The notes below the pieces were generated by a model. The model made no database searches. It was not told the DNA's origin and saw nothing but the letters and a program-made list of their open reading frames with translations. Of a DNA stretch of 64,000 bases, positions 4,236 to 24,907 are shown piece by piece. The DNA comes from Hydrogenovibrio kuenenii DSM 12350. GTDB lineage: Bacteria > Pseudomonadota > Gammaproteobacteria > Thiomicrospirales > Thiomicrospiraceae. The stretch lies in the NCBI RefSeq assembly GCF_000526715.1, contig NZ_JAGP01000001.1:620001-684000 (forward strand), read 5' to 3'. The translations under genes were made by a program, and so were the position numbers. Every line of letters starts with the position of its first letter. The first letter of the stretch is position 1.

Positions 4236-4356
4236 CTTTGTGATGCACTCATGATTTAGTTTGGTGCAAATCTGTTTTTTTGTTGAACAATATTCTTGAT
4301 TTAATCTTATTAAACCATTGATTTATAAGTATTTTTTCTTTTGGTATGCAGGTTGC

Positions 4357-4384
4357 TTATTACGAATATAGTAAATCGTAATAA
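4357..4384. promoter_or_regulatory. Inverted repeat, candidate operator of the guanidine operon
   Basis: A perfect dyad, TTATTACGA, 10 bases, TCGTAATAA, ends 27 bases before the permease start. The same architecture with three substitutions lies before the solute-binding-protein gene (24693-24720). Ribbon-helix-helix proteins of the NikR family bind spaced inverted repeats, so the NikR-like regulator encoded at 6342 is the likely binder (inference). Confidence 0.65.
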
Positions 4385-4411: not shown

Positions 4412-5386
4412 ATGGCAATCTTCCCTAAGACTTGGACAACACCTAGAACAGAGCTTGATAAAAAATCTAAACTTTGGCTGACTTTTGCGAGTTTTGCCAT
4501 TCCGCTTTTGCTTTGGAGTTTAGTCAGCTATGTTCCTTTTATATGGCACCCTCAAATTCAAGTAACGCATCCTGGTGATGTAAGTTATTTCCGAGTTGGC
4601 ACTTTAGTCAATAAGGATGTTTTTAATCGTGAAGTTGAAAAACGTTTGGCGATTAAGAATGAAAACCCTGTAAAAATTCCACAAGGCATACCAGCCAACC
4701 CTGTTTACTTGCCCGCTCCAGATCAGGTTGCTAAGGCAATGTATACGGCATTTACCACGCCGCCTAAGCGCTATAACGAACCTTGGTTGCACGAAAGTCT
4801 TTGGCACTCAATTCAAATTATTTTCTGGGGATTTTTCTGGTCGATGGTGTTTGGCGTGCCGCTTGGTATTTTGGCGGGAACCTATCATTCTGCATCACGA
4901 TTAATTGAACCCTTTACCGAGTTTTTCCGTTATTTGCCAGCACCTGCGTTTGGAGCGCTAGCAGTTGCAATTTTGGGTATTTATGACGCACCGAAAATTG
5001 CCATTATCTTTATAGGTACTTTCTTTCAAATGGTGCTGATTGTTGCTACCACGACGCGTAAGTTGAATATGGCTTTAGTAGAAGCAGCATTAACGCTGGG
5101 CTGTAAAGGTGGTTCGTTGATTCGTCGAGTCATCTTGCCGGGTGTCTTGCCTGATTTGTTCCGTGACATGCGTATTCTGCTAGGTTGGGCATGGACGTAT
5201 CTGATCGTTGCGGAATTGATTGGAACCAGCTCGGGGATTACCTTTTTTATCACGCAACAAGCACGCTATAAGAACTTTGACAATGTGTTCGCGGCGATAT
5301 TGATGATCAGTATTTTTGGTATTGTGACCGACATGATCTTAGCAAAACTTGGTAAACGTTTGTTCCCTTGGAATAATTCAAATTAA
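4412..5386 (+). CDS. ABC transporter permease (SsuC/TauC type), guanidine/urea cluster
   Basis: A 324-residue inner-membrane permease of the taurine/sulfonate/nitrate importer class. One membrane segment lies near residues 25-42, followed by a long periplasmic stretch of about 80 residues, then the core of five segments. The EAA-loop motif EAALTLGCKGGSLIRRVILPG-type (about residues 226-246) contacts the ATPase. The long periplasmic insertion after the first helix is typical of permeases annotated as urea-carboxylase-related. It heads an operon with the ATPase, a regulator and guanidine-degrading enzymes, so its substrate is probably guanidine or a related compound. The partner binding protein is not adjacent; it is at 23689-24678 on the other strand. 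Confidence 0.88.
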   Translation: MAIFPKTWTTPRTELDKKSKLWLTFASFAIPLLLWSLVSYVPFIWHPQIQVTHPGDVSYFRVGTLVNKDVFNREVEKRLAIKNENPVKIPQGIPANPVYLPAPDQVAKAMYTAFTTPPKRYNEPWLHESLWHSIQIIFWGFFWSMVFGVPLGILAGTYHSASRLIEPFTEFFRYLPAPAFGALAVAILGIYDAPKIAIIFIGTFFQMVLIVATTTRKLNMALVEAALTLGCKGGSLIRRVILPGVLPDLFRDMRILLGWAWTYLIVAELIGTSSGITFFITQQARYKNFDNVFAAILMISIFGIVTDMILAKLGKRLFPWNNSN

Positions 5387-5404
5387 GCAATTCTGGAGTA
5401 ATTA

Positions 5405-6340
5405 ATGACTAATACGACACACACTTCACCAGACAAGCACCCATTGGATGAATGGATAACGCCGGAAATTGCAGAAAGAAATGAGCGCATTGAGCAGCGC
5501 CCCGTTTCGCTTGAGTTGAAAGAGCTGCACAAATCGTTTGAACATAAGGGCAACGTCAATAAAGTTTTGGATGGCATTGATTTTAGTGTTTTTAAGCGTG
5601 AATTTATTTGTGTGGTTGGACCATCAGGTTGTGGTAAGTCGACCTTGGCAAGACTGATTTCAGGTTTGGAGCAAAAGGAAAGCGGGCAGATTCTAGTTGA
5701 TGGTCAAGATGTTGTTGAGCCCGGGCCAGATCGTGGCATGGTGTTTCAGGGCTATTCGTTATTTCCTTGGATGTCGGTAAAACAAAATGTGATGTTTGGT
5801 TTAACTGAATCGGGTATGGCGAAAAGCACAGCAGAAACAGAAGCCTTGCAATGGATTGATTTGGTTGGTTTGTCTAAGTTTGCCGATGCTTATCCTCACC
5901 AGCTGTCAGGCGGTATGAAACAACGTGTTGCTATCGTGAGAGCGTTGGCAAATCAACCGAAAATTTTGTTGATGGATGAGCCTTTTGCGGCACTAGACCC
6001 GAAAAACCGTTTGAAAATGCAGCAGTATTTATTGGAAATATGGCGCAATATCGACATTACCATTTTCTTTATTACGCATGATTTGGATGAAGCGATTTAT
6101 CTTGCAGACCGTATCTTAGTTTTGGATGCCAATCCTGGGCGTGTTCGAGAAGTGGTGAAGGTGCCTTTACCTAGACCGAGAGAAGACGATACCTTGTTAA
6201 GCCCAGCCTTCTTAGCAACCAAAGAATATTTAGAAACGCTTGTGCACCCGCCTGAAGTGGAAGAAGACACTTCAATGGAAGATAAGCTTAGTATGGTGCG
6301 CATGGTTCCTGTTAACGCAGAAGTTCCGGATATTTATTGA
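5405..6340 (+). CDS. ABC transporter ATP-binding protein, guanidine/urea cluster
   Basis: A 311-residue importer ATPase. Walker A GPSGCGKST lies at about residues 72-80, the signature LSGGMKQRV follows, and Walker B ILLMDEPFAALD and the switch His in FFITHDLDEA are present, so it should be active. A 35-residue N-terminal extension before the core is typical of the urea-carboxylase-associated subgroup. It sits 18 bases after the permease and only one base before the regulator, which implies co-translation. Energises uptake by the permease at 4412 with the distant binding protein at 23689. Confidence 0.9.
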   Translation: MTNTTHTSPDKHPLDEWITPEIAERNERIEQRPVSLELKELHKSFEHKGNVNKVLDGIDFSVFKREFICVVGPSGCGKSTLARLISGLEQKESGQILVDGQDVVEPGPDRGMVFQGYSLFPWMSVKQNVMFGLTESGMAKSTAETEALQWIDLVGLSKFADAYPHQLSGGMKQRVAIVRALANQPKILLMDEPFAALDPKNRLKMQQYLLEIWRNIDITIFFITHDLDEAIYLADRILVLDANPGRVREVVKVPLPRPREDDTLLSPAFLATKEYLETLVHPPEVEEDTSMEDKLSMVRMVPVNAEVPDIY

Positions 6341-6341
6341 T

Positions 6342-6824
6342 ATGGCACAACAACCTAAAAACACAAACAGCTTAGTAAGGACCAGTGCTTCATTGCCAGC
6401 GAAGGTGCTTGAAGATTTAGATCAACTGGTTGTCGATCGGGGTTTTCAGAATCGCTCGGCACTGTTGGCGGAAATGATTCAAAAAGAAGTTGCTTCCTAT
6501 CGCCAAAACTACACCAACGAGGTTATGGCAGGTACGCTGACTTTGGTTTATGACCACACGATTTCTGGCTTACAGCAAAAATTAAATCACTTGAAGCATC
6601 AAAATGTTGCCGAGATTATTTCCTCTACGCAGATCCAGTTAATGGATCAATATACATTAGAGGTGAACTTGATGCAGGGACCTGCACAAGACTTGAAACG
6701 TATCGGTGATGAAATGTTATCTAACCGCGGTGTAAAAACCGGAAATTTATATTTAACCCATTCTGCTTTGCCACCCATTTATACCCGGGTGAAAGACACA
6801 ACACAGGAGAAGTCGAATGACTGA
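6342..6824 (+). CDS. NikR-like ribbon-helix-helix regulator lacking nickel ligands
   Basis: A 160-residue protein starting at ATG 6342, one base after the ATPase stop. Residues about 10-50 form a ribbon-helix-helix DNA-binding domain (RTSASLPAKVLEDLDQLV); residues about 60-145 match the ACT-like ligand domain of NikR. In E. coli NikR nickel is held by His76, His87, His89 and Cys95. The aligned segment here reads STQIQLMDQYTLEVNLMQG: the paired His of TLHVH are Glu and Asn, and the Cys loop is missing. So it should not bind nickel at the usual site and may sense another molecule, perhaps guanidine, or act constitutively. The dyads at 4357 and 24693 are candidate operators. It overlaps the next gene by 8 bases. 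Confidence 0.8.
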   Translation: MAQQPKNTNSLVRTSASLPAKVLEDLDQLVVDRGFQNRSALLAEMIQKEVASYRQNYTNEVMAGTLTLVYDHTISGLQQKLNHLKHQNVAEIISSTQIQLMDQYTLEVNLMQGPAQDLKRIGDEMLSNRGVKTGNLYLTHSALPPIYTRVKDTTQEKSND

Positions 6825-7575
6825 AAACAATCTATCAAAATCTGCCAGGCTGGGTGATTTGATTTGGCGTGAAAACCTACCGGGTGGCGCCCATTGGTCA
6901 GGCGTGATTCGCCGTGGCACCGTTTTGAGAATCATGGATGTTGAGGGCGGTGCAAACGTTTCCATGCTGATGAACAACATCGAAGTGAAAAACGAACGCT
7001 ATAACATGCCGGATACCTTGAAAGCACAGAAAACCGCTTTTCTAACCACTCCGAATATGTGCTTTAGCGATATGGGACGCGTCATGTGTTCCATTATTGG
7101 CGATAGCTGCGGTTGGCACGACACCATTGGCGGTATTTCTAATGCACGCATGGTCGAGAAAAAGTTCGGTGTGAAGACTTATCAAGAAGCGCACAATGAT
7201 TATTACAAAAGCGGGTTTGATAGCTTGATCAACGAGCTGGAAAAATGGGGCTTGGGTGTTAGTGACATCATGCCTAACATTAACTGGTTCAGTAAAGTTC
7301 GCGTGGAAGAAAGTGGTGCGATGACCTTTGTGGAAGGCAACTCAAAAGCGGGCGATACGGTCGATTTACGTTTTGAGATGGACTGTATTGTCAGTTTAGC
7401 TACGGCTCAACACCCATTGGATCCGAATACAGCGTATGACCCAAAACCGATTGAACTAAGCGTCTTCAAAGCCATGCCAGTAGAGAATGACGACCCATGT
7501 CGTTTGCATAGAGCAGAAAACGAGCGCGCTTACTACAACACCAAAGTTTATTATGGAGAAAACCCAAATGGCTAA
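6817..7575 (+). CDS. DUF1989 protein, carboxyguanidine deiminase subunit (UAAP1)
   Basis: A 252-residue member of DUF1989, long annotated as urea-amidolyase-associated protein 1. Published work on this family showed that the two DUF1989 proteins together (CgdAB) hydrolyse carboxyguanidine to allophanate. Visible family features are [18 protein letters not shown] near the N-terminus, a SMLMNN strand, and the Cys/His-bearing segment [11 protein letters not shown] (about residues 99-109), a probable metal site. Start overlaps the regulator by 8 bases and its own end overlaps the second subunit by 8 bases, as expected for a heteromeric enzyme. One exact copy of the 19 bp dispersed repeat (minus orientation) lies at 6837-6855 inside this gene. 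Confidence 0.88.
6837..6855 (-). repeat. Dispersed 19 bp repeat, copy 1 (exact)
   Basis: ACCCAGCCTGGCAGATTTT on the minus strand, within the first DUF1989 gene. Matches the consensus ACCCAGCCTGGYAGATTTT with no mismatch. Confidence 0.8.
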
Positions 7576-8224
7576 TGTGATGCAGACAGAAACTTTTGAC
7601 GATAGCCGTATCGTTTACCGAGAAGTGGTTGAGGCAGGTAAACCTTGGATGCACGAAGTAAAAGCGGGGCAGTTTTTCCGTATTGTCGACTTGGAAGGTA
7701 ACCAAGCAGTAGACACTTTATTCTATAACGCGAAAGACCATTCAGAACGCTATTCAGCAGCGGATACCATTCGTGAACAAGGCAATATTTACTTGACGAC
7801 TGGTAGTGTGTTGCAATCTAATTTTATTAACCCGATGTTGACGATTGTTGATGATACCTGTGGTCGTCACGATACCATTGGCGGTGCGTGTTCAGCTGAA
7901 AGTAACACAGTGCGTTATGCGATTGAGAAACGTCATATGCACTCTTGCCGTGATTCCTTCTTGATGGCGTTGAACACGTGCGATTGCCATGCCGACCATC
8001 CGATGACAAAAGGAGATTTGGCGAGCAACATTAATTTCTTTATGAATGTACCGGTATCACCAGACGGGCATTTGGATTTTGATGATGGTATTTCAGCGCC
8101 AGGGCGTTATGTCGAAATGCAGGCGCATATGGACGTGCTTGTGTTGGTGTCGAACTGTCCGCAATTGAACAACCCATGTAATGGTTATAACCCGACGCCT
8201 GTAGAAATGGTGATTTGGGAATAA
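7568..8224 (+). CDS. DUF1989 protein, carboxyguanidine deiminase subunit (UAAP2)
   Basis: A 218-residue DUF1989 protein, the partner of the preceding gene. The ATG at 7568 is chosen because GGAG lies 9 bases upstream; an in-frame ATG 81 bases earlier is inside the previous gene. It carries [21 protein letters not shown]-type family sequence near residues 32-52 and [14 protein letters not shown] (about 95-108), matching the Cys/His segment of the first subunit. With it, it should remove ammonia from carboxyguanidine to give allophanate in the cytosol. The gene ends 36 bases before the guanidine-II riboswitch. Confidence 0.88.
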
Positions 8225-8260
8225 CTAAACAGTCAATGACGACTAATTAAAGAGTAAAGC

Positions 8261-8307
8261 CGGCTGGGACGACCCAGTTGAAGATGGTAGCTTCAGAACG
8301 ATCTGAA
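8261..8307 (+). promoter_or_regulatory. Guanidine-II (mini-ykkC) riboswitch
   Basis: Two small hairpins, each capped by the tetraloop ACGA: the first has stem CTGGG/CCCAG at 8264-8277, extendable by a C-G and two G-U pairs to 8261-8280; the second has stem TTCAGA/TCTGAA at 8292-8307. They are separated by 11 bases, and AGGA of the ribosome binding site follows 3 bases after the second stem, with the start codon at 8320. Tandem hairpins with ACGR loops just before a start codon define the guanidine-II riboswitch, where the loops kiss and free guanidinium binds each loop. It should control translation of the carboxylase and fixes the substrate of this operon as guanidine. Confidence 0.88.
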
Positions 8308-8319
8308 AAAGGAAAACCT

Positions 8320-11300
8320 ATGTTTAATAAAGTGCTGATTGCAAACCGCGGTGCCATCGCTACGCGTATTATTCGCACCCTGAAAAAAATGAATATCACT
8401 TCTGTTGTTTTGGCATCGGATGCTGACCGAGCATCGTTGCATGTAAAAGAAGCCGATGAAGTCATTTTTCTTAAAGGCAACGCAGCGACAGAAACTTATT
8501 TGAATGTTCCGTTGATTCTTGAGCGAGCAAAAGCATTGGGGGTGGAAGCGATACACCCTGGTTATGGTTTCTTGAGTGAAAACGCCAGCTTTGCGGAAGA
8601 TTGTGAACACATGGGAATCCGTTTTATCGGGCCGTCACCAAAGCATATTCGAGAGTTTGGTTTAAAGCACACAGCCCGTGAATTGGCGATTGAGGCAAAA
8701 GTGCCTTTGCTACCAGGTTCAGACCTGTTGGAAACTGTAGAAGAGGCTCTAAAAGAAGCGGATCGTATCGGTTATCCCGTAATGTTGAAAAGTACCGCGG
8801 GCGGTGGCGGTATTGGGATGCAGAAATGTGATTCGGCAGAGGTGTTGTCGGAAGCATTTGAGCAGGTCGCACGTCTGAGTCAGAACTCATTCGGTCAAGC
8901 CGGTATTTTCCTAGAGAAGTTTGTTGTTAACGCCCGTCATATCGAAATCCAGATTTTCGGTGATGGTAAAGGCAAGGTCGTTTCGCTTGGCGAGCGTGAT
9001 TGTTCATTGCAACGTCGTAACCAAAAGGTGGTGGAAGAAACGCCTGCGGTCGGCATTAGCCGAGATATGGTTGCTGAAATGGAAGCCCATGCGGTGCGTT
9101 TGGGAGAGTTGGTCAGTTACCAATCTGCCGGTACGGTTGAGTATGTTTATGATGCCGATGCCAATCAATATTATTTCTTGGAAGTAAACACGCGTTTGCA
9201 GGTAGAGCACGGTATTACCGAGGCAGTTCGTAATGTCGATTTAGTCGAATGGATGGTGCAAGTCGCCTTTGACCAAAATCTGCCAGGCGGGGGTAAGGTT
9301 AACCCAGCAACAGGACATGCCATCGAAGTACGTGTTTATGCCGAAGACCCATTTAAAAACTTCCAGCCAAGTTCCGGTAAATTGACGGGTTGGGATATGC
9401 CAACTGATTGCCGAGTGGATACCTGGTGTTCCAAAGGTCAGGAAGTCAGCTCTTTCTATGATCCTATGCTGGCGAAAATCATCGTTACAGGGAAAGACCG
9501 AAACGATGCAGTTAGTAAGTTGAACATGGCATTGAAATCAACGCGTATTTACGGTTTTGAAACCAATGTGTTTTACTTGGAGGCCTTAAGCGAATCGCCA
9601 GATTTCATCAAAGCAAAAAACTTATATACGCAATTTCTCAATAGTTTTAGCCATGACCCTTATACGGTAGAAGTGACCAATCCTGGTACTCACTCCATGT
9701 TGGTGAGCTATCCTGGGCGTGTCGGTTTTTGGGATATTGGTGTTCCGCCTTCGGGGCCGATGGATGCTTTATCGCATCGTCTTGCAAACCGTTGTTTGAA
9801 CAACCCCGAAGATGCTGCGACTATTGAAATGACCGTGTCGGGCATCAGCCTGAAGTTTGACCGTGATACGGTGATCTGCGTCACTGGAGCAGACATTCAA
9901 CCGACTTTAGATAAAGAGCCGATTCCACAATGGCAGGCGGTTCATGTTAAAGCGGGTCAACAATTTAAATCGAAAGTCATCAAAGAAACCGGGCAAAGAG
10001 CTTACTTGGCCGTGTTAGGTGGATTTGATGTGCCGGATTATATGGGCAGTAAAACCACTTTCTCGCTAGGTGGGTTTGGTGGACATGGCGGTCGTCTATT
10101 ACGTGCAGGGGATGTATTACGTTTATCCCGCCATAGTGTTCAGGATGCCGTATTGAATGACTTACCGAAAGGTTTAATTCCAAAATTGGATAACCGTGTC
10201 GAGATTGCGGTGATTTACGGGCCACAGGGCGCACCGGATTTCTTTACCGATGAAGATATAGACACCTTCTTTTCAACCGATTGGGAAGTGCATTACAACT
10301 CGAGCCGCACCGGGATTCGCCTGATCGGGCCAAAACCCAAGTGGGCGCGAACAGATGGTGGTGAAGCCGGACTGCATCCATCGAATATTCACGATAATCC
10401 TTATGCGATTGGTGCTATCGACTTCACGGGTGATATGCCGGTTATCCTGGCGCAAGATGGCCCTAGTTTGGGCGGTTTCGTTTGCCCGGCAACCATTATC
10501 GAAGCAGAGCAATGGAAAATGGGGCAATTGCGTCCAGGTGATAAAGTTCGCTTTAGACCCGTTTCGATTGAGATGGCTGAAGAAGAGCTTAAAGCTCAAG
10601 AAGCCGCTTTAGCAGGATTGACGGACTGGATGTTGGCCGATACAAAATTTCTGGCTTCGCCAACAGAGCAATCATGTCTTGCACTAGAAATTTCTTCAGA
10701 TGAACATGAGTTTGGTGTCAAATATCGCCGCTCAGGTGATAGTCATGTGTTGATTGAGTACGGTGCAATGGAGCTGGATTTGGCACTGCGTTTCCGTATT
10801 CAAGTGTTGGTAGAGAAGTTGAAAACACTGAAAGATGAAGACCCAGCCTGGCAGTTTTTACGTGATTTGACGCCAGGGATTCGTTCACTACAAGTTCACT
10901 ATGATCCGAAAAAAGTTTCTCAGAATCATTTGATTCAAATGCTGAAAGCACTGGAAGATGAGATTTCTTCAGCAAAAGATTTAACGGTGAAAAGCCGTGT
11001 TGTTCGTCTGCCTTTGTCTTGGGATGATCCAAGCACGCGTTTGGCGATTGAAAAATACATGACAACTGTGCGTCCAGATGCGCCTTGGTGTCCAAGTAAT
11101 ATTGAGTTTATTCGTCGTATCAATGGATTGGATTCGATTGAAGATGTGAAGCGTATTGTGTTCGATGCCAAATATTTGGTCATGGGCTTGGGAGATGTTT
11201 ATCTAGGAGCTCCAGTGGCGACACCTTTGGACCCTCGTCACCGCTTGGTTACCACTAAATACAATCCAGCTCGTACCTGGACACCAGAAAATGCCGTTGG

Positions 11301-11955
11301 TATCGGCGGCGCCTATATGTGTGTCTACGGTATGGAAGGCCCAGGTGGTTATCAGTTTGTCGGGCGTACCATCCAGATGTGGAATGCCTATTTCAATACG
11401 CCATTTTTCCAGCAAGGAAAACCTTGGCTGTTGGATTTCTTCGACCAGATTCAATTTTATCCAGTCAGCGAAGAAGAGTTGGCCAAGGCGAGAAATGATT
11501 TCCCGCTTGGGCGCTATGACATTGAAATCGAGGAAACGACTTTATCTTTAAGCGCGTATCAAGGGTTCTTAGCAGAAGAAGCCGATAGCATCCAAACTTT
11601 CCAAACTAAGCAACAAGCTGCTTTTGAAGCAGAGCGTCAGCGTTGGGAGGAAACCGGACAAGCGAATTTCGAGTCTAACGCTGCGCAAGAAGAAGTGCTG
11701 GGTGAGACGCCAATAGAAATTCCTGAAGGCTTTGAAGCCGCCATGTCACCGATTACCGGTAGTGCTTGGAAAATTACGGTTAAACCAGGCGACAGAGTCG
11801 AGGAAGGGGGTGTGATTGCCATTCTGGAAACGATGAAAATTGAGATTCCCGTTGAAGCAGAGTGCGATGGCACCGTGGCAGAAATTTTGGTGAATGAAGG
11901 TGACCTGATTCAAAACGGGCAGGCGTTAATGATTTTGGAGGTAGGTGAGGAATGA
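8320..11955 (+). CDS. Guanidine carboxylase (annotated in databases as urea carboxylase)
   Basis: A 1211-residue biotin-dependent carboxylase; ATG at 8320 chosen, with AGGA 7 bases upstream. Domains in order: biotin carboxylase about 1-450 (MFNKVLIANRGAIATRII, glycine-rich ATP loop STAGGGGIGM); carboxyltransferase made of fused KipA- and KipI-like parts about 465-1075 (GRVGFWDIGVPPSGPMD, later GAYMCVYGMEGPGGYQF); and biotin carrier about 1140-1211 with ETMKIE, Lys1173 being the biotin site. Urea carboxylase shares this architecture. The neighbouring DUF1989 pair and the guanidine-II riboswitch favour guanidine as substrate: guanidine plus bicarbonate plus ATP gives carboxyguanidine. It overlaps allophanate hydrolase by ATGA. 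Confidence 0.9.
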   Translation: MFNKVLIANRGAIATRIIRTLKKMNITSVVLASDADRASLHVKEADEVIFLKGNAATETYLNVPLILERAKALGVEAIHPGYGFLSENASFAEDCEHMGIRFIGPSPKHIREFGLKHTARELAIEAKVPLLPGSDLLETVEEALKEADRIGYPVMLKSTAGGGGIGMQKCDSAEVLSEAFEQVARLSQNSFGQAGIFLEKFVVNARHIEIQIFGDGKGKVVSLGERDCSLQRRNQKVVEETPAVGISRDMVAEMEAHAVRLGELVSYQSAGTVEYVYDADANQYYFLEVNTRLQVEHGITEAVRNVDLVEWMVQVAFDQNLPGGGKVNPATGHAIEVRVYAEDPFKNFQPSSGKLTGWDMPTDCRVDTWCSKGQEVSSFYDPMLAKIIVTGKDRNDAVSKLNMALKSTRIYGFETNVFYLEALSESPDFIKAKNLYTQFLNSFSHDPYTVEVTNPGTHSMLVSYPGRVGFWDIGVPPSGPMDALSHRLANRCLNNPEDAATIEMTVSGISLKFDRDTVICVTGADIQPTLDKEPIPQWQAVHVKAGQQFKSKVIKETGQRAYLAVLGGFDVPDYMGSKTTFSLGGFGGHGGRLLRAGDVLRLSRHSVQDAVLNDLPKGLIPKLDNRVEIAVIYGPQGAPDFFTDEDIDTFFSTDWEVHYNSSRTGIRLIGPKPKWARTDGGEAGLHPSNIHDNPYAIGAIDFTGDMPVILAQDGPSLGGFVCPATIIEAEQWKMGQLRPGDKVRFRPVSIEMAEEELKAQEAALAGLTDWMLADTKFLASPTEQSCLALEISSDEHEFGVKYRRSGDSHVLIEYGAMELDLALRFRIQVLVEKLKTLKDEDPAWQFLRDLTPGIRSLQVHYDPKKVSQNHLIQMLKALEDEISSAKDLTVKSRVVRLPLSWDDPSTRLAIEKYMTTVRPDAPWCPSNIEFIRRINGLDSIEDVKRIVFDAKYLVMGLGDVYLGAPVATPLDPRHRLVTTKYNPARTWTPENAVGIGGAYMCVYGMEGPGGYQFVGRTIQMWNAYFNTPFFQQGKPWLLDFFDQIQFYPVSEEELAKARNDFPLGRYDIEIEETTLSLSAYQGFLAEEADSIQTFQTKQQAAFEAERQRWEETGQANFESNAAQEEVLGETPIEIPEGFEAAMSPITGSAWKITVKPGDRVEEGGVIAILETMKIEIPVEAECDGTVAEILVNEGDLIQNGQALMILEVGEE
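9275..9293 (-). repeat. Dispersed 19 bp repeat, copy 2 (two mismatches)
   Basis: Minus-strand CCCCCGCCTGGCAGATTTT within the biotin-carboxylase part of guanidine carboxylase. Differences are at positions 1 and 5. Confidence 0.5.
10841..10859 (+). repeat. Dispersed 19 bp repeat, copy 3 (one mismatch)
   Basis: ACCCAGCCTGGCAGTTTTT within guanidine carboxylase; A to T at position 15. Confidence 0.65.
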
Positions 11956-13754
11956 GTACTCAAAGAGACTTACGTATTTCATCGTTGAAGCAGCTTTATG
12001 CTTCCGGCGAGCTGTCGCCTCGTGAGCTTATGTCTGAGCTTGTGAAAGAAGCGCAAGGTTATAGCAATCATAATATTTTTATCCATTTATTGTCTGAAGC
12101 TGAGCTAGACCCTTATTTGTCGAAACTGGAAGCCAGTGAACCAAATAGTTTGCCGTTGTGGGGCGTTCCGTTTGTCATTAAAGATAATATCGATTTGGCG
12201 GGTATTCCAACTACTGCGGCTTGCCCTGAGTACGCTTATGTACCTGAATCTTCGGCAACGGTGGTTCAGTTGTTGATTGATGCTGGAGCGATTCCTTTGG
12301 GTAAAGCCAATATGGACCAGTTCGCAACCGGCTTAGTCGGCACGCGTTCGCCTTATGGTGTGTGTCACAACTCGTTTGATTTCGATATGATTTCTGGCGG
12401 TTCAAGTTCTGGTTCGGCAGTTTCTGTGGCATTAAACCTATGTAGTTTTTCTTTGGGAACTGACACGGCAGGCTCTGGTCGTGTGCCGGCTGCATTCAAC
12501 AACTTGATTGGATTAAAGCCTTCTAAAGGACTGTTAAGTACCAAAGGTGTTGTGCCAGCGGTTCGCTCTCAAGATGTGGTGAGCGTGTTTGCGCTGAATT
12601 CGCAAGATGCCTATGACGTATTTGAAGTGGCAGCACAAGCTGACGATGAAGATGAGTTCAGTCGTGATGAAATGGCGTTGATGCCACCAGCTTGGGGCGC
12701 GCGTCCGGTATTTGGGATTCCTACTGCGGAGACTTTGGAGTTTGCGGGTGATAAGCAAGCTGAGAAGCATTTTTACGATTCAATCGCTACATTGAAAAAA
12801 CAAGGCTATGAAGTTAAAGAAATCGACTTTCAGCCTTGGTTGGACACTGCAAAACTACTCTATGAAGGTGCTTGGGTTGCTGAACGCTATGTCGCGATTG
12901 CTGACTTTATGGAAACGCATGAAGAGGTAATGGATCCGAGTGTTGGAAGCATTATCGCTGGGGCGAGAAGCTTGAGTGCAGCAGATGCATACAAAGGCAG
13001 TTATGCTCTACAGAAAGCACAGAAGTTAACCGAGTTTTTGTGGGGTGAGATTGATTGCATGATTACACCAACCACACCGACCATTTACTCTATTGAGCAG
13101 ATGCAGAAAGAACCGATTAAGCTCAATTCAATGTTGGGAACTTACACTAATTTCATGAACCTGTTGGATTATGCTGCTTTGGCAATGCCGACTGGATTCA
13201 GAGAAGACAGTTTGCCAGCAGGTCTGACTATGTTTGCACCAGCAGGTTCTGATCGTTTGTTGATGCAACTTGCCGATAAATTGCACGGTCAATTCGTGCA
13301 AACATCAGGAGCGAAGCAAACCCCTGTGACGGAAAGGAATTCATCACACTTCGTTAATCCGCATAGCATTTCGCTGGCGGTGGTTGGAGCGCATTTGACG
13401 GGCTTTCCTTTGAATTGGCAGTTAACTGAGCGCGGTGCAAAATTGTTGCAGACCACGCAAACAGCAGCAAAATATAATTTTTACGAACTCTCTGAAAGAC
13501 CAATTCTAAAGCCAGGTCTAGTGAAAAATGAAGCAACAGGCTTTAGCATTGAAGTAGAAGTATGGGCGATGCCTAAGCAGCATTTAGGCTCTTTTCTGGC
13601 ATTGATTCCATCACCGTTGGGTTTGGGTAAGGTTGAGTTGGTTGATGGTTCGCAAGTGGTCGGTTTTATTTGTGAGCCTTATGGTATAGAAGGTGCCAAG
13701 AGTATCAGCCAAACCGGTGGTTGGCGCAACTGGATGTCGGAAAGAGATCATTAA
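11952..13754 (+). CDS. atzF: Allophanate hydrolase
   Basis: A 600-residue amidase-signature enzyme. The catalytic Ser-cisSer-Lys triad is visible as Lys77 (FVIKDNIDLAG), a serine of GGSSSGSAV (about 151-153) and nucleophile Ser175 (TDTAGSGRVPA). The C-terminal domain (about 470-600, AVVGAHLTGFPLN...GICEPYG-like sequence ending GGWRNW) matches the AtzF second domain. It converts allophanate to two ammonia and two carbon dioxide, the last step of guanidine nitrogen release. Here it is a separate polypeptide, not fused to the carboxylase as in fungal urea amidolyase. It overlaps the carboxylase by four bases and closes the operon. Confidence 0.92.
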   Translation: MSTQRDLRISSLKQLYASGELSPRELMSELVKEAQGYSNHNIFIHLLSEAELDPYLSKLEASEPNSLPLWGVPFVIKDNIDLAGIPTTAACPEYAYVPESSATVVQLLIDAGAIPLGKANMDQFATGLVGTRSPYGVCHNSFDFDMISGGSSSGSAVSVALNLCSFSLGTDTAGSGRVPAAFNNLIGLKPSKGLLSTKGVVPAVRSQDVVSVFALNSQDAYDVFEVAAQADDEDEFSRDEMALMPPAWGARPVFGIPTAETLEFAGDKQAEKHFYDSIATLKKQGYEVKEIDFQPWLDTAKLLYEGAWVAERYVAIADFMETHEEVMDPSVGSIIAGARSLSAADAYKGSYALQKAQKLTEFLWGEIDCMITPTTPTIYSIEQMQKEPIKLNSMLGTYTNFMNLLDYAALAMPTGFREDSLPAGLTMFAPAGSDRLLMQLADKLHGQFVQTSGAKQTPVTERNSSHFVNPHSISLAVVGAHLTGFPLNWQLTERGAKLLQTTQTAAKYNFYELSERPILKPGLVKNEATGFSIEVEVWAMPKQHLGSFLALIPSPLGLGKVELVDGSQVVGFICEPYGIEGAKSISQTGGWRNWMSERDH

Positions 13755-14063: not shown

Positions 14064-16253
14064 ATGCCTGAGACAGGGAAGTTGTACATTGCGTTAATCA
14101 GTGTGCATGGTTTGATTCGTGGAAAAAATCTTGAGTTGGGGCGAGATGCTGATACCGGCGGGCAAACACTCTATGTGCTTGAACTTGCTCAGGCTTTAGC
14201 CAAACATCCTGCTGTTGGCCGTGTGGATTTGTTTACCCGTAAAGTGGTAGATGATGATGTTTCAAAAGACTATGCCGTACCTCGTGAAAAACTGCCTAAT
14301 CATTTGCAAATAGTTCGGATTGAAGCCGGCCCAAACCAGTATGTGCAAAAAGAACAGCTTTGGGACTACCTAGACGCTTTTACCGACAATATGATGAACT
14401 ATTTTCGCGAGCAGGATGCTTACCCGGATATCTTACATAGTCATTATGCGGATGGTGGTTATGTGGCAGAACATCTGGCGAATCAACTCGGTATTCCTTT
14501 GGTTCATACAGGGCATTCTTTAGGGCGCGTGAAGCGTAGGCGATTGTTAGCCAGTGGATTGTCCGCACAAGAAATTGAAGTTCTCTACAACATGACGCGT
14601 CGAATCGATGCGGAAGAAAATGTGTTGGCTGTTGCCGAAAGGGTGATTACCAGCACTCACCAGGAAATAGAAGAACAATACGAGCTCTATGACTTCTATC
14701 AGCCTGAAAAAATGCGTGTATTGCCACCAGGAACGAATCTAAATGATTTTATGCCACCTGATGGTGATCATGAGTTGGATACCCCTTTGTTTTACGAACT
14801 GGTGAAACATCTGAAAGAACCATTCCGTCCGATAATTCTTGCTTTATCCAGACCTGACAAGCGAAAAAATATTGTTTCTTTGGTTGAGGCCTATGGTCAA
14901 TCTTTAAGACTGCAATCATTGGCGAATTTGGTCATTATTGCGGGTAATCGAGATGATATAGACGATTTGGAGCATGGAGCACAATCTGTATTTCAAGAGA
15001 TTTTTGTGGCGATAGACCGTTATGATCTTTACGGCAAAGTTGCATTACCAAAGCATCATAAACGAGAACAAGTTTCCCAAATTTATCGAATTGCCGCCGC
15101 GACCAAAGGTATTTTTGTCAATCCCGCACTGACCGAACCTTTTGGATTGACTCTGATAGAAGCAGCCGCTTCTGGGCTGCCCATCGTGGCAACAGAAGAT
15201 GGTGGGCCGAGAGACATCATTGGCAATTGTCATAACGGTATTTTGATTGATCCTTTGGAGCCTGAAACCCTCAGTGATGCCTTATTAAAGCTACTGACTT
15301 TTCCTGACTTGTATAGTCGCTATGTAGAGAACGGTTTAAAAGGTGTGCGAGAGCATTACTCTTGGGACGCGCACGTTGAACGCTATTTGGATGTTACGGA
15401 AACCATAGCGAAAGATTCAGAACAACGACTGAAGCCGAGTGTATCAGGGCAGCGTCGAGATATTTATCCTGATCGTGTCTTTGTCACGAGTTTGGATCAA
15501 AACTTAATGGGCGACAGTGAATCATTGCATGAGTTGATAGGTCTGTTGCGTCAAAATCGTAAGAACACATTATTTATCGTCGCAACCGGAAGGCGTCTAG
15601 ATTCTGCATTGAAGCTAATGAAAAAAAATGGCATGCCGGAGCCGGATATTTTGATTAGTAGTGGCGGAACCGAAATCAATTATGCACCCAAACTTACCAT
15701 GGATACTGCATGGGCAAAACACATCGATTATCACTGGACAAGGCATAAATTAAAGCAGCTTTTGGATGAATATCCAGGTTTGGAACGTCAGCCAAAACTT
15801 GAACAAAGCTTCTTCAAACTCAGTTATTTTATTGATCCCGATATAGCCGATGTAGAAGAGATTAAACGTTTGTTGCATAAAGAAGAGCAGTCGGTGAATG
15901 TACAACTGTCATTTGGACAGTTTTTAGATATCTTGCCGATACGCGCGTCAAAAGGCATGGCTCTGCGCTATGTTGTCAATCAATGGCAAATTCCTTTGGA
16001 AAGGGTTTTTGTTGCAGGTGGTGCTGGCTCGGATGAAGATATGATGCGAGGCAATTCATTGGCTGCAGTCGTGGCAAACCGCCATGATGAAGAGTTATCT
16101 AAATTGGTGGATATTGATCGTATTTATTTTGCCGACCAACCTTATGAAAAAGGAATATTGGAAGCCTTAGAATTTTATGATTTCTTTGGTAGCTGTCGTG
16201 ATCCGCGTGAAGAACAGGACGTAATCAAAACCATGGAGGTTGAAGGTTCGTGA
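14064..16253 (+). CDS. Sucrose-phosphate synthase with degenerate phosphatase-like tail
   Basis: A 729-residue protein. Residues 1-450 are a family-4 glycosyltransferase: N-terminal SVHGLIRGKNLELGRDADTGGQ-type donor/acceptor loop and the C-terminal LTEPFGLTLIEAAASGLPIV motif with the retaining Glu pair. It makes sucrose 6-phosphate from UDP- or ADP-glucose and fructose 6-phosphate. Residues about 468-710 form a HAD-like domain resembling sucrose-phosphatase, but the expected DxDxT nucleophile motif reads SLDQN: the first Asp is Ser476. So the tail is probably non-catalytic, and the separate phosphatase next door does that step. It overlaps the phosphatase gene by 4 bases. Confidence 0.92.
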   Translation: MPETGKLYIALISVHGLIRGKNLELGRDADTGGQTLYVLELAQALAKHPAVGRVDLFTRKVVDDDVSKDYAVPREKLPNHLQIVRIEAGPNQYVQKEQLWDYLDAFTDNMMNYFREQDAYPDILHSHYADGGYVAEHLANQLGIPLVHTGHSLGRVKRRRLLASGLSAQEIEVLYNMTRRIDAEENVLAVAERVITSTHQEIEEQYELYDFYQPEKMRVLPPGTNLNDFMPPDGDHELDTPLFYELVKHLKEPFRPIILALSRPDKRKNIVSLVEAYGQSLRLQSLANLVIIAGNRDDIDDLEHGAQSVFQEIFVAIDRYDLYGKVALPKHHKREQVSQIYRIAAATKGIFVNPALTEPFGLTLIEAAASGLPIVATEDGGPRDIIGNCHNGILIDPLEPETLSDALLKLLTFPDLYSRYVENGLKGVREHYSWDAHVERYLDVTETIAKDSEQRLKPSVSGQRRDIYPDRVFVTSLDQNLMGDSESLHELIGLLRQNRKNTLFIVATGRRLDSALKLMKKNGMPEPDILISSGGTEINYAPKLTMDTAWAKHIDYHWTRHKLKQLLDEYPGLERQPKLEQSFFKLSYFIDPDIADVEEIKRLLHKEEQSVNVQLSFGQFLDILPIRASKGMALRYVVNQWQIPLERVFVAGGAGSDEDMMRGNSLAAVVANRHDEELSKLVDIDRIYFADQPYEKGILEALEFYDFFGSCRDPREEQDVIKTMEVEGS

Positions 16254-17095
16254 ATCAGCAATCGATACTCTTGTGTACCGACATGGATCGTACATTGATT
16301 CCTAATGGTGAACAGCCAGATGAACCTGAATCAAGGCGTTTATTTGCTCAGTGTTGTCGTTTGGATGACGTAAGCTTGATTTATGTAACAGGTAGGCATA
16401 AAGCTCTTGTAGAAGAAGCAATAGCGGAATATAACTTACCGACACCGGATTACGCGATTACCGATGTTGGTACACAAATCTATCATGTCGATAACGGTAA
16501 GTGGCAAGTTTGGCAAGTTTGGGAAGACGAAATCGCGCCGGATTGGCAAGGTTGGACAAACCAGAGTATTCGAAAACTGTTAGCGCCAATAGAGCAACTC
16601 TTACCTCAAGAAGAAAGTAAGCAGAATCATCATAAATTGAGTTATTACGTTTCTTTGCCTGTAGATGAAAAAATCTTGATGAAACAAGTCGAGGCCAGCC
16701 TGGCAGAAAATGCGATTAAGGCGAATCTGATTTGGAGTATTGATGATTTAACTAATGTTGGATTGCTGGATATTTTGCCTGCTTCTGCAACAAAACTTCA
16801 TGCGATTCGCTTTTTACATCAACGCCTGAATCATGGAGAAAATCAGGTGTTTTTTGCTGGAGATAGTGGTAATGATTTGCCTGTGTTGGCAAGTGAAATT
16901 CCTTCGGTTTTAGTGGCAAATGCGACGGATTCAGTTAGAAAAGAAGCGCAATTGCAGGCAAGAAAACTGGGAAATGAAAGAGCACTTTATTTAGCGAAAA
17001 AGCAGCAACAAGGTAACGGCAATTACGTGGATGGTATTTTGCAAGGATTGGAATACTTTAAATTTTGTAATTTAAGGCTTAAATCAGGCGATTGA
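16250..17095 (+). CDS. Sucrose-6-phosphate phosphatase
   Basis: A 281-residue HAD-superfamily hydrolase; start is GTG at 16250, overlapping the synthase stop by four bases. Motif I is intact, TDMDRTL with Asp11 as nucleophile and Asp13 as acid/base; motif II is YVTGRH, and motif IV GDSGNDLPVL is present. It removes phosphate from sucrose 6-phosphate, driving the synthase forward. Its intact motif I contrasts with the altered one in the synthase tail. Cytosolic, second gene of the sucrose operon. Confidence 0.92.
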   Translation: MNQQSILLCTDMDRTLIPNGEQPDEPESRRLFAQCCRLDDVSLIYVTGRHKALVEEAIAEYNLPTPDYAITDVGTQIYHVDNGKWQVWQVWEDEIAPDWQGWTNQSIRKLLAPIEQLLPQEESKQNHHKLSYYVSLPVDEKILMKQVEASLAENAIKANLIWSIDDLTNVGLLDILPASATKLHAIRFLHQRLNHGENQVFFAGDSGNDLPVLASEIPSVLVANATDSVRKEAQLQARKLGNERALYLAKKQQQGNGNYVDGILQGLEYFKFCNLRLKSGD

Positions 17096-17111
17096 TTGAG
17101 GTAAAGGGAAG

Positions 17112-18014
17112 ATGGCGGATCAAACTCAAATAGTTGTATTTGGAGAGGTTCTATTCGATTGTTTTTCGGATGGAAATGAGGTGTTAGGGGGCGCACCATT
17201 TAATGTAGCTTGGCATCTACAAGCATTTGGTGATAATCCAATTTTTATTTCTCGAATCGGCAATGACCCGAGAGGGCAAAAGGTGGTTTATGAAATGCGT
17301 CAATGGGGTATGGATTTGACGCAACTTCAAGTCGATGCCACTCATCCTACCGGTCAGGTTGATATATCGTTACTAGATGGTGAGCCACATTATGAGATTA
17401 CACCAGACTGTGCTTATGATTTTATTGATTTTCATGAAATAAGCCCTTTGCCTGAAGAAAGGATTCTTTATCATGGAACGCTAGGGTTACGTAATCGTGT
17501 TTCGCGTCATGCTCTGGTTGAAATGTCCTCGACTTTGGGAAACTCTATTTTCTTAGATGTGAATTTACGAGAACCTTGGTGGACGAAACAAGAAGTTCTT
17601 TATTGGCTGGATTCTGCGCGTTGGGTAAAGCTAAACCAAGACGAGTTGAGAGCGCTAGGTTTTACTACGCCAGATTTAAAATCGGCTTTGACGGAGCTGG
17701 CTGAAAACTATGCGTTGGAACAAGTCATACTGACTCGCGGCGAAATGGGAGCGATGGTGTTTGATGCTGAAGAAGGCTTCTTTGAAATAAAACCTGAAAC
17801 TGTTTTATCCAATAACAATGCTGAAATTGTCGATGCAGTGGGAGCGGGCGATGCCTTCACTTCGGTCTATTTGCATGGATTAGTGCATGAATGGCCAATA
17901 GATAAAACCCTTAAAATGGCACAGGCCTTTGCGTCACAAATTATCAGCATGCGTGGCGCGACTACAAATGACTGTGACTTTTACCAAACAATCCTAAATA
18001 CCATTAAAGAGTAG
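17112..18014 (+). CDS. Fructokinase (PfkB family)
   Basis: A 300-residue ribokinase/PfkB kinase. N-terminal GEVLFDCF...GGAPFNVAWHLQAFG and the C-terminal VDAVGAGDAFTS motif carry the sugar site and the anion hole with catalytic Asp. It phosphorylates fructose to fructose 6-phosphate. In this operon it would recycle the fructose set free by amylosucrase, or feed the synthase. Located 16 bases after the phosphatase with a GAGGTAAAGGGAAG ribosome site. The order synthase, phosphatase, fructokinase, amylosucrase matches sucrose clusters known from halotolerant methylotrophs. Confidence 0.9.
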   Translation: MADQTQIVVFGEVLFDCFSDGNEVLGGAPFNVAWHLQAFGDNPIFISRIGNDPRGQKVVYEMRQWGMDLTQLQVDATHPTGQVDISLLDGEPHYEITPDCAYDFIDFHEISPLPEERILYHGTLGLRNRVSRHALVEMSSTLGNSIFLDVNLREPWWTKQEVLYWLDSARWVKLNQDELRALGFTTPDLKSALTELAENYALEQVILTRGEMGAMVFDAEEGFFEIKPETVLSNNNAEIVDAVGAGDAFTSVYLHGLVHEWPIDKTLKMAQAFASQIISMRGATTNDCDFYQTILNTIKE

Positions 18015-18025
18015 AAAGGAAATAT

Positions 18026-19978
18026 ATGTACGAACAGATCTCGCACACCCTGTTAAATGATATTCTCAACCAAATTAAACCGGAAATTTCCAAGGCAGAT
18101 TTGCGTCATTTTTATACTAGGTTGGGGGCGAACTTTTACGCGATACATTCGTTATTTGAGAAGCTTTATGGGGATCGGGACGACTTTGCCGAACACGCTT
18201 TGCGTTTGGTTGAAACTATGGCGCGTAAGTACATTAACCGCTCAGAAGAACTCAAACTATTGGATGAAAGTAGAGAACGGGATTATAACTGGTTCTTAAG
18301 CCAGAAGTGGGTTGGTATGGCGTTGTATGCCAATGGATTTGCTGGCGACCTGAAAGGGTTGAGAGATCACTTGGGCTACTTCCAGGAATTAGGCGTGAAT
18401 ATGGTGCATATCATGCCAATTATGGAGTGCCCGGATGGCAGTAGTGATGGTGGTTATGCGGTCAGTAATTTCAGACAGATAGATGACAGAATCGGTACAT
18501 TAGAAGATTTGAATGACCTAGCAAAAGATATGCGCCAGCGTGATCTTTTGCTGGTGATGGATGTGGTTCTGAATCATACATCCGATGAGCATGAATGGGC
18601 CTGTAAAGCGCGTAAAGGCGAACAAAAATACTTGGATTATTACTATACGTTTGAGAACCGAACGGTGCCAGATATGTTTGAACAAAGCATGTTGGAGGTG
18701 TTCCCACAGACTGCACCGGGCAATTTTACCTGGAATGAGGAAATGCAGCGCTGGGTGATGACGGTATTTAATAACTACCAATGGGATTTGAACTATAACA
18801 ACCCAGCAGTGTTTATTGAAATGCTTGATATTATTCTCTTTTGGGCGAACCAAGGTGTTGATGTACTGCGATTGGATGCGGTGGCGTTTTTGTGGAAAAA
18901 AATTGGTAGTACCTGTCAAAATGAACGTGAAGCGCATTTGATTTTGCAGCTTTTAAAAGACTGTTGCCAAGTTGTTGCACCAAGTGTCCTTTTCATTGCT
19001 GAAGCGATAGTGGCGCCGTCAGAAGTGATTAAGTACTTTGGTGAAGATGCGGTTATCGCCAAAGAGTGTGAGGTTGCCTATAACGCAACCTTTATGGCCT
19101 TGATGTGGGATGCGGTAGCCACTAAAAACGCCAAACTTCTCAATCAGGGTATTAAGAGCTTGCCTGTGAAATTGGATCGCGCTACATGGCTCAACTATGT
19201 ACGGTGCCATGATGATATCGGTTTAGGGTTCGATGATAAGGATGTGATTAAAGCTGGGTATGAGCCGACATCACATAGGCATTTTTTAGTTGAGTATTTT
19301 TTAGGAAAGTTTGATCACTCGCACGCCCGAGGGTTACCCTTTGGGCAAAATCTGAAAACGGGTGATATGCGAATATCTGGCTCGTTAGCCTCTCTTGTGG
19401 GTTTGCAATATGCATTGGAAGTTGGAGATATTGAGGCAACCGATAATTCAATCAAAATGATTTTGCTGCTACACAGTCTTATTTTTTCTTTTGGTGGCAT
19501 TCCTCTGCTCTACTATGGTGATGAAATTGGTACCTTGAATGACGATTCCTATTTGGCTAACCCTTATAAGATGGATGACACTCGTTGGGTGCATAGACCC
19601 ACCATTGATTGGGAGAAAGCCGATTTAAGGCATGCGCCGGGTACAGTGGAGTATGCCATTTTCAGTGAACTCAAACGGATGATTGCGGTCAGAAAAGAGA
19701 TAGATGTTTTTGCAGACTTTAACAATCGTGAACTGATTGATGTAGATAACCCTAATCTGTTTGTATTCGAACGTTACAACCTGCACAAACAGGGTGACCA
19801 TGTGCTTGTAGTGGCGAATTTTAATGCCGAACCCCAATACTTGAACCTAGAAGAGATTGGAGAATGGAAAAACCAGAAAGATCAAATCGTTGACCTTTAT
19901 TCAGGTAAATCTCCTGATATTTATAAAAATATGTTGCTGATTCCTCGGTTTGGATTTTATTGGCTGCACCAAGCCTAA
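18026..19978 (+). CDS. Amylosucrase (GH13)
   Basis: A 650-residue glycoside hydrolase family 13 enzyme, full family length. An N-terminal helical domain (1-90) precedes the barrel. Conserved regions are MDVVLNHTSDEHEW, DVLRLDAVAFLWK with nucleophile Asp284, LFIAEAIV with acid/base Glu326, and VRCHDDIGLGF with Asp396. It moves glucose from sucrose to glucan and releases fructose, so it can turn the osmolyte into storage glucan or, run with the fructokinase, recover carbon when osmotic stress ends. A signal peptide is absent. It ends at 19978 and the convergent EamA gene ends at 19979 with no base between the two stop codons. Confidence 0.92.
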   Translation: MYEQISHTLLNDILNQIKPEISKADLRHFYTRLGANFYAIHSLFEKLYGDRDDFAEHALRLVETMARKYINRSEELKLLDESRERDYNWFLSQKWVGMALYANGFAGDLKGLRDHLGYFQELGVNMVHIMPIMECPDGSSDGGYAVSNFRQIDDRIGTLEDLNDLAKDMRQRDLLLVMDVVLNHTSDEHEWACKARKGEQKYLDYYYTFENRTVPDMFEQSMLEVFPQTAPGNFTWNEEMQRWVMTVFNNYQWDLNYNNPAVFIEMLDIILFWANQGVDVLRLDAVAFLWKKIGSTCQNEREAHLILQLLKDCCQVVAPSVLFIAEAIVAPSEVIKYFGEDAVIAKECEVAYNATFMALMWDAVATKNAKLLNQGIKSLPVKLDRATWLNYVRCHDDIGLGFDDKDVIKAGYEPTSHRHFLVEYFLGKFDHSHARGLPFGQNLKTGDMRISGSLASLVGLQYALEVGDIEATDNSIKMILLLHSLIFSFGGIPLLYYGDEIGTLNDDSYLANPYKMDDTRWVHRPTIDWEKADLRHAPGTVEYAIFSELKRMIAVRKEIDVFADFNNRELIDVDNPNLFVFERYNLHKQGDHVLVVANFNAEPQYLNLEEIGEWKNQKDQIVDLYSGKSPDIYKNMLLIPRFGFYWLHQA

Positions 19979-20869: not shown

Positions 20870-20886
20870 AGGAATGTATTCTTATA

Positions 20887-21738: not shown

Positions 21739-21774
21739 CTTTGCTTGTCTTTATTTTATGAAGTAACGATTTCA

Positions 21775-22557: not shown

Positions 22558-22577
22558 GTTTATATCCTTGTGATTCG

Positions 22578-23588: not shown

Positions 23589-23638
23589 GAGCTTCACCTT
23601 TGTTTTAAATGGTGGGCTTAAGGGTAAGTTGTATAAAT

Positions 23639-23674
23639 GATCCCAGACGAGCAACGAATGTTGCTCAAGGGATC
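23639..23674 (-). other. Intercistronic hairpin after the solute-binding-protein gene
   Basis: Upper stem GAGCAAC/GTTGCTC (7 bp, 4-base loop) on a lower stem GATCCC/GGGATC (6 bp) with a small internal loop. It lies in the 100-base gap between the binding-protein gene and the desaturase-like gene, 14 bases after the former. No T-run follows on the minus strand. Such hairpins commonly stabilise the mRNA of an abundant binding protein relative to genes downstream. Confidence 0.6.
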
Positions 23675-23688
23675 GAGAGGGTTAGTAT

Positions 23689-24720: not shown

Positions 24721-24907
24721 TTCTTAAGCATTAGGTATACCATTAAATTTAAGTTATTGAAATAAAAGAATAATTTTTATTTATGTGTAAGATTTTTTTG
24801 ATTTTTCTATCATAGTTGATTTATTTTGGTGCGAATTTTGTAATTTTTTGGTGAGTTATTGTTTGCAATGCTTTATATTGAAATCAGGTGGAATTTTTCA
24901 AACTTTA

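Follow-up and report, generated by a model that had tools for sequence, protein, structure and literature searches.

A probable guanidine carboxylase operon of Hydrogenovibrio kuenenii with a NikR-like regulator at its front and a likely guanidine-II element of atypical sequence inside it

Results

We analyzed a 64,000-nucleotide stretch of the Hydrogenovibrio kuenenii DSM 12350 genome (contig NZ_JAGP01000001.1, positions 620,001 to 684,000; hereafter, the window) that carries an operon for a likely guanidine carboxylase. Two hairpins with ACGA loops lie directly before the carboxylase gene, and the front part of the operon contains a gene for a NikR-like protein. The explanation that best joins our results, to which we assign a probability of about 0.7, is that the hairpins form an atypical guanidine-II riboswitch that serves as a local second control, and that a NikR-like repressor together with a sigma54-type promoter provides transcriptional control at the front of the operon. 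The original prediction, made from the letters of the window, had called the hairpins a guanidine-II riboswitch and had suspected that the front of the operon uses a DNA-binding regulator. That regulator is the NikR-like protein, and it turned out to be the most interesting part of the prediction. The two-hairpin finding is real and, as originally put, ordinary: a weak-scoring guanidine-II element at its usual place. The new and unusual part of the locus appears to be the replacement of a guanidine-I riboswitch by a protein.

The operon lies on the forward strand. It encodes an ABC transporter permease (4412-5386) and ATPase (5405-6340), the NikR-like ribbon-helix-helix regulator (6342-6824), UAAP1 (6817-7575; TIGR03425) and UAAP2 (7568-8224; TIGR03424), both DUF1989 proteins that the literature describes as carboxyguanidine deiminase subunits, the carboxylase (8320-11955), annotated as urea carboxylase (TIGR02712, 1800 bits), and allophanate hydrolase (11952-13754; NF006043/TIGR02713). 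For comparison, we used 62 genomes of the window's family, in which the named relatives are Hydrogenovibrio and Thiomicrorhabdus, and 369 genomes of its class. Of the 62 genomes, 23 encode a carboxylase that passes the family cut-off, and their loci are referred to as the 23 family loci. The class sample gave a UAAP1 match in 30 genomes, one of which (G273) fell below the cut-off and was left out; all UAAP1 loci that passed it, the window's own family excepted, make up an outside set of 27 guanidine operons. In 22 of the 23 family loci, the genes from permease to allophanate hydrolase follow one another in the same order; the remaining one (G006) is cut by a contig end.

Asp701 of the carboxylase (codon 10420-10422) aligns with Asn1330 of the K. 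lactis enzyme (5i8i), which we take to be the diagnostic Asn of urea carboxylases. Asp occupies this position in 48 of the 49 carboxylases covered by the alignment, which excludes that of L131. The available portion of PMC12186494 reports Asp in guanidine enzymes where urea carboxylases have Asn. Because of Asp701, guanidine is the likely substrate, as judged from sequence. The original prediction had reached the same identity by way of the riboswitch; the identity is upheld by Asp701 and the operon partners, and a riboswitch alone does not identify a substrate. The single Asn is found in L149 (G253), in an operon with guanidine-I, and this enzyme may be a urea enzyme or the rule may be relaxed there.

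The regulator, of 160 amino acids, is homologous to NikR (E 4e-24 to 2bj1), with a ribbon-helix-helix joined to a NikR_C domain; it is the only NikR homologue found in the window's genome at E<=1e-5. Its AlphaFold model, with a mean predicted local distance difference test (pLDDT) score of 76.7, shows, for both domains, all the helices and strands expected apart from the first strand. In the N-terminal strand, R13, S15 and S17 are invariant. According to the accessible part of PMC6332059, the nickel ligands of H. pylori NikR are H88, H99, H101 and C107. The window protein has H86, Q97, Q99 and T105 at these positions, so that HxH..C is replaced by QxQ..T, and QxQ..T is found in 24/24 family proteins. 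Fifteen further NikR-like proteins, 7 from class-sample genomes outside the window's family and 8 from a phylum sample, vary among NxN, HxN, HxF and HxH, and none has the Cys or all four ligands. Taken together, all four nickel ligands are present in 0/39 operon-type proteins vs 15/15 presumed canonical NikR proteins, with the Cys lost in 39/39; HxH is kept by five of the 39, two of which keep three of the four ligands. The 15 canonical proteins were chosen by a lower score and by standing away from UAAP genes, and comprise part of the lower-scoring matches. A tree separates 38 operon-type proteins from these 15 with support of 100/99, under a midpoint root, with long-branch warnings and with the fragment from L146 excluded. 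Seven of the eight phylum-sample proteins belong to a class other than the window's. Six of the eight are encoded near UAAP1 (five adjacent, and that of L246 about 7 kb away); the L252 regulator comes after a binding-protein/permease/ATPase set, and the L251 regulator lies on a different contig from its UAAP operon.

Before the permease gene, we found a sigma54-type promoter, TGGTATGCAGGTTGCT (4342-4357, forward strand), and a 28-bp palindrome, TTATTACG-N12-CGTAATAA (4357-4384, forward strand), which we propose as operator 1 of the NikR-like protein. A proposed operator 2, likewise a 28-bp palindrome (24693-24720, reverse strand), and a second sigma54-type promoter, TGGTATACCTAATGCT (24727-24742, reverse strand), precede a gene for a substrate-binding protein of the NMT1/SsuA type (23689-24678, reverse strand), whose orthologues in other families are encoded first in the operon. 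The palindrome spans the same 28 bp as the NikR operator, GTATGA-N16-TCATAC, given in the portion of PMC7055735 available to us, and thus has the geometry of such an operator. The promoter before the permease gene has the GG-N10-GC arrangement of predicted -24/-12 elements, and rpoN was found in the window's genome.

These elements are conserved. We compared 23 permease leaders (the window, 21 carboxylase loci and G003) and the leaders of 23 binding-protein orthologues found by searching 60 family genomes, counting palindromes that match at 12/16 positions or better and running the identical search on mononucleotide-shuffled leaders. A palindrome like TTATTACG-N12-CGTAATAA is present in 23/23 permease leaders and 23/23 binding-protein leaders, at a shuffle rate of 0.8%; in all 23 binding-protein orthologues it starts 40-55 bp before the start codon. 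The GG-N10-GC element occurs in 21/23 permease leaders and in 12/23 binding-protein leaders, in the latter always at one phase, with 2.1% for shuffles. In 18 permease leaders, the palindrome starts at one fixed phase behind a TGGYAY..TTGC-like element that has GG-N10-GC. NtrC-type half-sites are found in 10/23 permease and 18/23 binding-protein leaders, against shuffle means of 0.7 and 0.8. Six outside operons begin with the binding-protein gene, whose leader has the palindrome in 5/6 and the sigma54 element in 6/6. The operator in these outside leaders therefore led to the prediction that the family's missing binding-protein gene carries the operator as well, and this was borne out by the gene at 23689-24678. 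In a scan of the whole genome, no site other than operator 1 matched exactly, and operator 2 was among six sites with two mismatches. In a different class, L251 has a site of the form GTATGACG-N12-CGTCATAC beside its NikR-like gene.

The NikR-like gene and the guanidine-I riboswitch, as recognized by covariance-model matches, are mutually exclusive at the front of the operon across the loci compared. Guanidine-I is found at the front of 0/13 NikR-bearing loci with visible upstream DNA vs 21/22 NikR-lacking loci. The 13 without it are the window, G012, L133, L134, L136, L139, L152 and L241-L246; L146 is cut at the gene. At the looser threshold of E<=1, none was found in nine regulator-bearing loci, again with L146 cut. 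Eighteen of the 21 class-sample UAAP loci that lack a NikR-like gene have guanidine-I at the gathering level, the other three (L135, L142 and L151) being cut by the contig at the transporter, and three of the four scanned phylum-sample loci without the gene have it, the exception being L249. The hypergeometric probability for 14 vs 22 loci is 4e-9, for loci that are not independent of one another. Among the 62 genomes of the window's family, the search, whose filters lose weak matches, gave one guanidine-I match at chance level (E 0.072, G021). In one genome (G272), the regulator stands with a transporter at a locus that has no guanidine-I (L158), and a separate UAAP operon (L147) has guanidine-I. 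The exceptional L249 (G519) is a UAAP operon with neither a gathering-level guanidine-I nor a NikR-like match in its stretch.

The hairpins, both on the forward strand, lie between the end of UAAP2 (8224) and the carboxylase ATG (8320). P1 (8261-8280) has the core CTGGG-ACGA-CCCAG (8264-8277), with its loop at 8269-8272 and the closing pair G8268-C8273, and two G-U pairs and one C-G pair extend its stem to 8 bp. P2, TTCAGA-ACGA-TCTGAA (8292-8307), has its loop at 8298-8301 and the closing pair A8297-U8302, and is followed by the AAAGGA Shine-Dalgarno sequence and the start codon (8308-8322). The linker measures 14 nt when P1 is counted as 5 bp and 11 nt when it is counted as 8 bp; two ACGR-tetraloop hairpins, mostly at least 13 nt apart, are the mark of guanidine-II in the portion of PMC5486947 that we could consult. 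On direct reading, the hairpins, stems, spacing and Shine-Dalgarno distance of the original prediction are all right. A pair of ACGR hairpins with stems of at least 5 bp within 60 nt occurs once in the window, both strands counted, and in 0/60 dinucleotide shuffles. The Rfam model RF01068 (guanidine-II) aligns over its full length to 8261-8305 with 25.9 bits (E 0.029 for the 4.4 kb searched), and across the 2.45 Mb of the genome it is the sole match at E<=10 (E 0.0039); as a control for such matches, 11 of 14 other genomes also give one, two of them over the cut-off. No sigma70 promoter was listed by a consensus scan in the stretch from UAAP2 to the carboxylase. A UUGAAG/CUUCAG pairing in the window's linker was considered as a shared element and set aside since, by eye, it is not common to all relatives.

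Both hairpins are present between UAAP2 and the carboxylase in 17 of the 23 family loci. Five lack P1 and keep a P2-like stem whose loop has six bases (G009, G002, G008 and G039, and displaced in G005), and one (G047) has neither hairpin. These six loci (L095, L097, L106, L115 and L110 with the P2-like stem, displaced in L110, and L108 with nothing) look like stages of riboswitch decay in which the regulator and operator persist. Base pairs were counted separately for P1 and P2 of the 17 loci, aligned without gaps; full-length MAFFT alignments of the RNA had shifted P2 out of register in the group with long linkers, and we discarded them. The loci in this count were preselected for having P1 as well as P2, so that the paired fraction is inflated. 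Covariation scores are 0.607 for P1 (shuffled mean 0.246) and 0.927 for P2 (0.457), values reached by 0/500 shuffles in each case, and the scores drop when the pairing partners are slid; the stems have thus changed in a compensatory manner, as in guanidine-II. With 17 hits of other families added, P1 scores 0.774 vs 0.194 for shuffles. The number of pairs with two-sided changes is a weaker sign than the covariation score and is not above shuffles for P1: 4/6 for P1, 5/5 for P2 and 5/6 for P1 with the other families, numbers reached by 178, 49 and 28 of 500 shuffles.

The loop-closing pairs of the two hairpins behave differently. In the crystal structure, guanidine stacks on the closing pair G6-C11, the floor of its pocket (PMC5486947, as far as its available text goes). 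P1 has G-C in all 17 two-hairpin family loci; P2 has A-U in 13/17 and G-C in 4/17. By its predicted pairing, then, one of the two guanidine pockets is altered in most of the window's family. We also built a covariance model (R1) solely from 17 gathering-level guanidine-II hits of other families and ran it on the window and 22 family loci. In-register R1 matches at E<0.003 were obtained for the carboxylase leaders of six of these loci (L094, L098, L112, L105, L100 and L107), and that of L103 is matched at E 0.14; the matches in several others are out of register or weak.

A guanidine-II element before the carboxylase inside the operon is the usual layout and has already been published. The parts of PMC12508155 and PMC12186494 open to us describe it between cgdB and gca, with a guanidine-I-led unit lying upstream. 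The 27 outside operons gave 17 gathering-level guanidine-II hits, 16 of them in the gap separating UAAP2 from the carboxylase (a gap that in L134 also holds an open frame on the opposite strand) and the 17th (L143) before a desaturase-like gene. Hence, the internal position stated in the original prediction is confirmed, while its description as notable does not hold. The Vreelandella boliviensis gca operon, as given in the consulted part of PMC12508155, resembles the window's operon in its two-hairpin guanidine-II between cgdB and gca, its importer and deiminase genes and its allophanate hydrolase gene behind. It differs in that it is headed by guanidine-I, whereas the window has the NikR-like gene, a sigma54-type promoter and a palindrome, with no guanidine-I found, and in that the window's P2 has an A-U closing pair. 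Likewise, the Raoultella, Klebsiella and Erwinia operons (PMC12186494, same portion) have a front unit of importer and deiminase genes and a rear unit of carboxylase and allophanate hydrolase under guanidine-II, and there the front unit is under guanidine-I, unlike in the window. With NikR itself (PMC7055735 and PMC6332059, in the same parts; PDB 2bj1, 2wvd and 1q5v by sequence search), the window protein shares the ribbon-helix-helix and NikR_C domains and a 28-bp operator of two half-sites, and it differs in its lost nickel ligands, its linkage to guanidine genes, its palindrome beside sigma54-type promoters and its place on the other side of the tree. Our literature search, whose coverage excludes most subscription papers so that a prior mention is possible, found no link between NikR and guanidine or guanidine carboxylase; the papers that pair NikR with urea carboxylase proved irrelevant, judging by the parts of them available.

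The NikR-like protein would also govern a second operon (19979-24678), which runs on the reverse strand. Behind the binding-protein gene stands a cluster (19979-23654) of a fatty-acid-desaturase-like gene (22578-23654), an MBL-fold hydrolase gene (21775-22557), a TIM barrel gene (20887-21738) and an EamA/DMT permease gene (19979-20869). The desaturase-like gene is present in 23/23 carboxylase-bearing family genomes, accompanied by the MBL, TIM and DMT genes where the stretch reaches, except that the stretches of G009 and G002 gave no TIM match. It follows the binding-protein gene in 14/23, the window included, and heads its own row in 9. In G025, G035 and G095, two ACGR hairpins lie directly before the desaturase-like gene, behind the allophanate hydrolase gene (L111, 13504-13550; L103, 916-962, reverse strand; L112, 977-1022, reverse strand); RF01068 gives 40.6 and 37.6 bits for G025 and G035, and R1 gives 48.5, 40.4 and 38.5 bits for the three. 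Palindromes of at least 12/16 precede the gene in G008, G009, G002 and G039, and neither element was found within 250 bp of it in G006 and G021. Outside the family, guanidine-II precedes the desaturase-like gene in L143, which belongs to a guanidine-I lineage, and a palindrome does so in L139. Two kinds of guanidine-linked elements therefore mark this cluster, and its four genes may provide a way to liberate guanidine from a larger compound.

Discussion

We propose two layers of control. In the first, nitrogen shortage would lead NtrC and sigma54 to start transcription of the operon, which is probably NtrC-dependent, and the NikR-like repressor, bound to the palindrome at the start site, would block transcription until its ligand is present. 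That the protein binds these palindromes, and with this sign, is what we infer from the comparisons above. In the second layer, guanidine would lock the two ACGA loops together and so raise translation of the carboxylase, an action carried over from the literature on the class. Guanidine-II would thus govern the carboxylase and allophanate hydrolase, and the transporter, regulator and deiminase genes would be under transcriptional control. Because the riboswitch decays in relatives that keep the operator and regulator, the first layer seems to be the more needed one. Because the protein has lost the nickel site and taken the place of a guanidine-I riboswitch, it most likely responds to guanidine or to a compound of the pathway.

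Several observations weigh against this explanation. On the RNA side, the 25.9 bits of the RF01068 match lie under the Rfam gathering score of 32, so that the covariance-model search named in the original prediction found its match and the match fell short; the hairpins are accordingly unlisted in the gathering-level scan of the window, and they were lost in a family scan with stricter filters. RF01068 at E<=1 gave nothing in the two family loci scanned in this way, L098 and L105. The A-U closing pair of the window's P2 departs from the binding-site consensus, in common with most two-hairpin loci of the family. The best R1 match in the window (18.2 bits, E 0.042, 8233-8277) is out of register, with P2 of the model on the real P1; from the register of the R1 matches, we therefore take P1 to be typical and P2 to be the departing part. 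Enforcing P1 and P2 in folding gave no change in access to the Shine-Dalgarno sequence, and one or both hairpins are decayed or lost in 6/23 relatives. On the protein side, all three histidines are kept in two NikR-like proteins (L133 and L134). The sigma54 element is not at its usual phase in 4/23 permease leaders and 11/23 binding-protein leaders, and no exact NtrC half-site was found in the window's binding-protein leader. Palindromes of at least 12/16 also occur in two loci that lack NikR, once in L138, inside the carboxylase gene, and three times in L148; we read these as chance. With up to three mismatches, the genome has 102 operator-like sites vs 231 for a reversed control pattern. As the control pattern is the commoner one, operator 2 rests on its position and conservation, the pattern alone being insufficient. 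We nevertheless regard the hairpins as likely members of the guanidine-II class with an atypical sequence.

A bolder proposal concerns the ligand, and we hold it tentatively, at somewhat under even odds: that NikR-fold proteins without the square-planar nickel site form a clade that is the first known guanidine-sensing transcription factor. It would have replaced guanidine-I in Gammaproteobacteria and in another class, acting on sigma54 promoters, and it would also govern desaturase-like, MBL-fold, TIM-barrel and DMT permease genes that would release guanidine, with the internal guanidine-II as a second check. The NikR-like protein could instead sense the nitrogen state or another compound such as urea, carboxyguanidine, allophanate or 2-oxoglutarate, leaving guanidine to the riboswitch. 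The operon is already tied to nitrogen by its sigma54-type promoters and NtrC-type half-sites, which makes this a possibility to be reckoned with; we lean away from it, given that no operon front in the comparison combines the NikR-like gene with guanidine-I, which is itself a guanidine sensor. A protein that still senses a metal, for example nickel in a choice between nickel-dependent and nickel-free nitrogen routes, would fit the clear homology to NikR and the five proteins with HxH, and is improbable in view of the absence of a complete ligand set from all 39 proteins, the universal loss of the Cys and the uniform QxQ..T of the family.

Might the hairpins before the carboxylase be a decaying and functionless remnant here, with the family's working guanidine-II being the one that precedes the desaturase-like gene in other members? 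The sub-threshold score, the register with R1, the changed P2 closing pair, the hairpin losses and the high-scoring elements of G025, G035 and G095 all speak for this. Yet the loops are intact and the stems compensated in 17 loci, 13 of which share the A-U closing pair, and we consider a remnant unlikely. The NCBIfam name urea carboxylase is what would support a true urea carboxylase whose hairpins have nothing to do with guanidine; against it, Asp701, the deiminase pair and the guanidine-II hairpins all meet in one operon, and we think it very improbable indeed. Returning to two-layer control by the NikR-like repressor and an atypical guanidine-II, the locus offers a concrete candidate protein, a likely operator at two promoters and the exclusion of guanidine-I. 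If the proposal is true, a protein sensor and an RNA sensor are exchanged for each other at a single point of the same pathway, and the cluster behind the binding-protein gene points to uncharacterized enzymes that may feed the guanidine pathway.

Additional observations

In L134, a palindrome (10748-10775 in the oriented locus) lies about 40 bp before the carboxylase guanidine-II (10816-10864), which suggests a second regulated promoter there. Six relatives (L226, L227, L228, L229, L230 and L224) have a further palindrome beyond the DMT gene, followed by creatininase-like and glutamine-synthetase-like genes. The same pair of genes stands inside the L152 guanidine operon (5331-7490), and it is not beside the window's cluster. 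The window also contains genes for a small signal recognition particle (SRP) RNA (24961-25057, forward strand) and RNase P RNA (51973-52348, forward strand). Between the two operons (14064-19978, forward strand) are glycosyltransferase, HAD-type, sugar kinase and amylase-like genes that, from their translations read by eye, look like a sucrose cluster.

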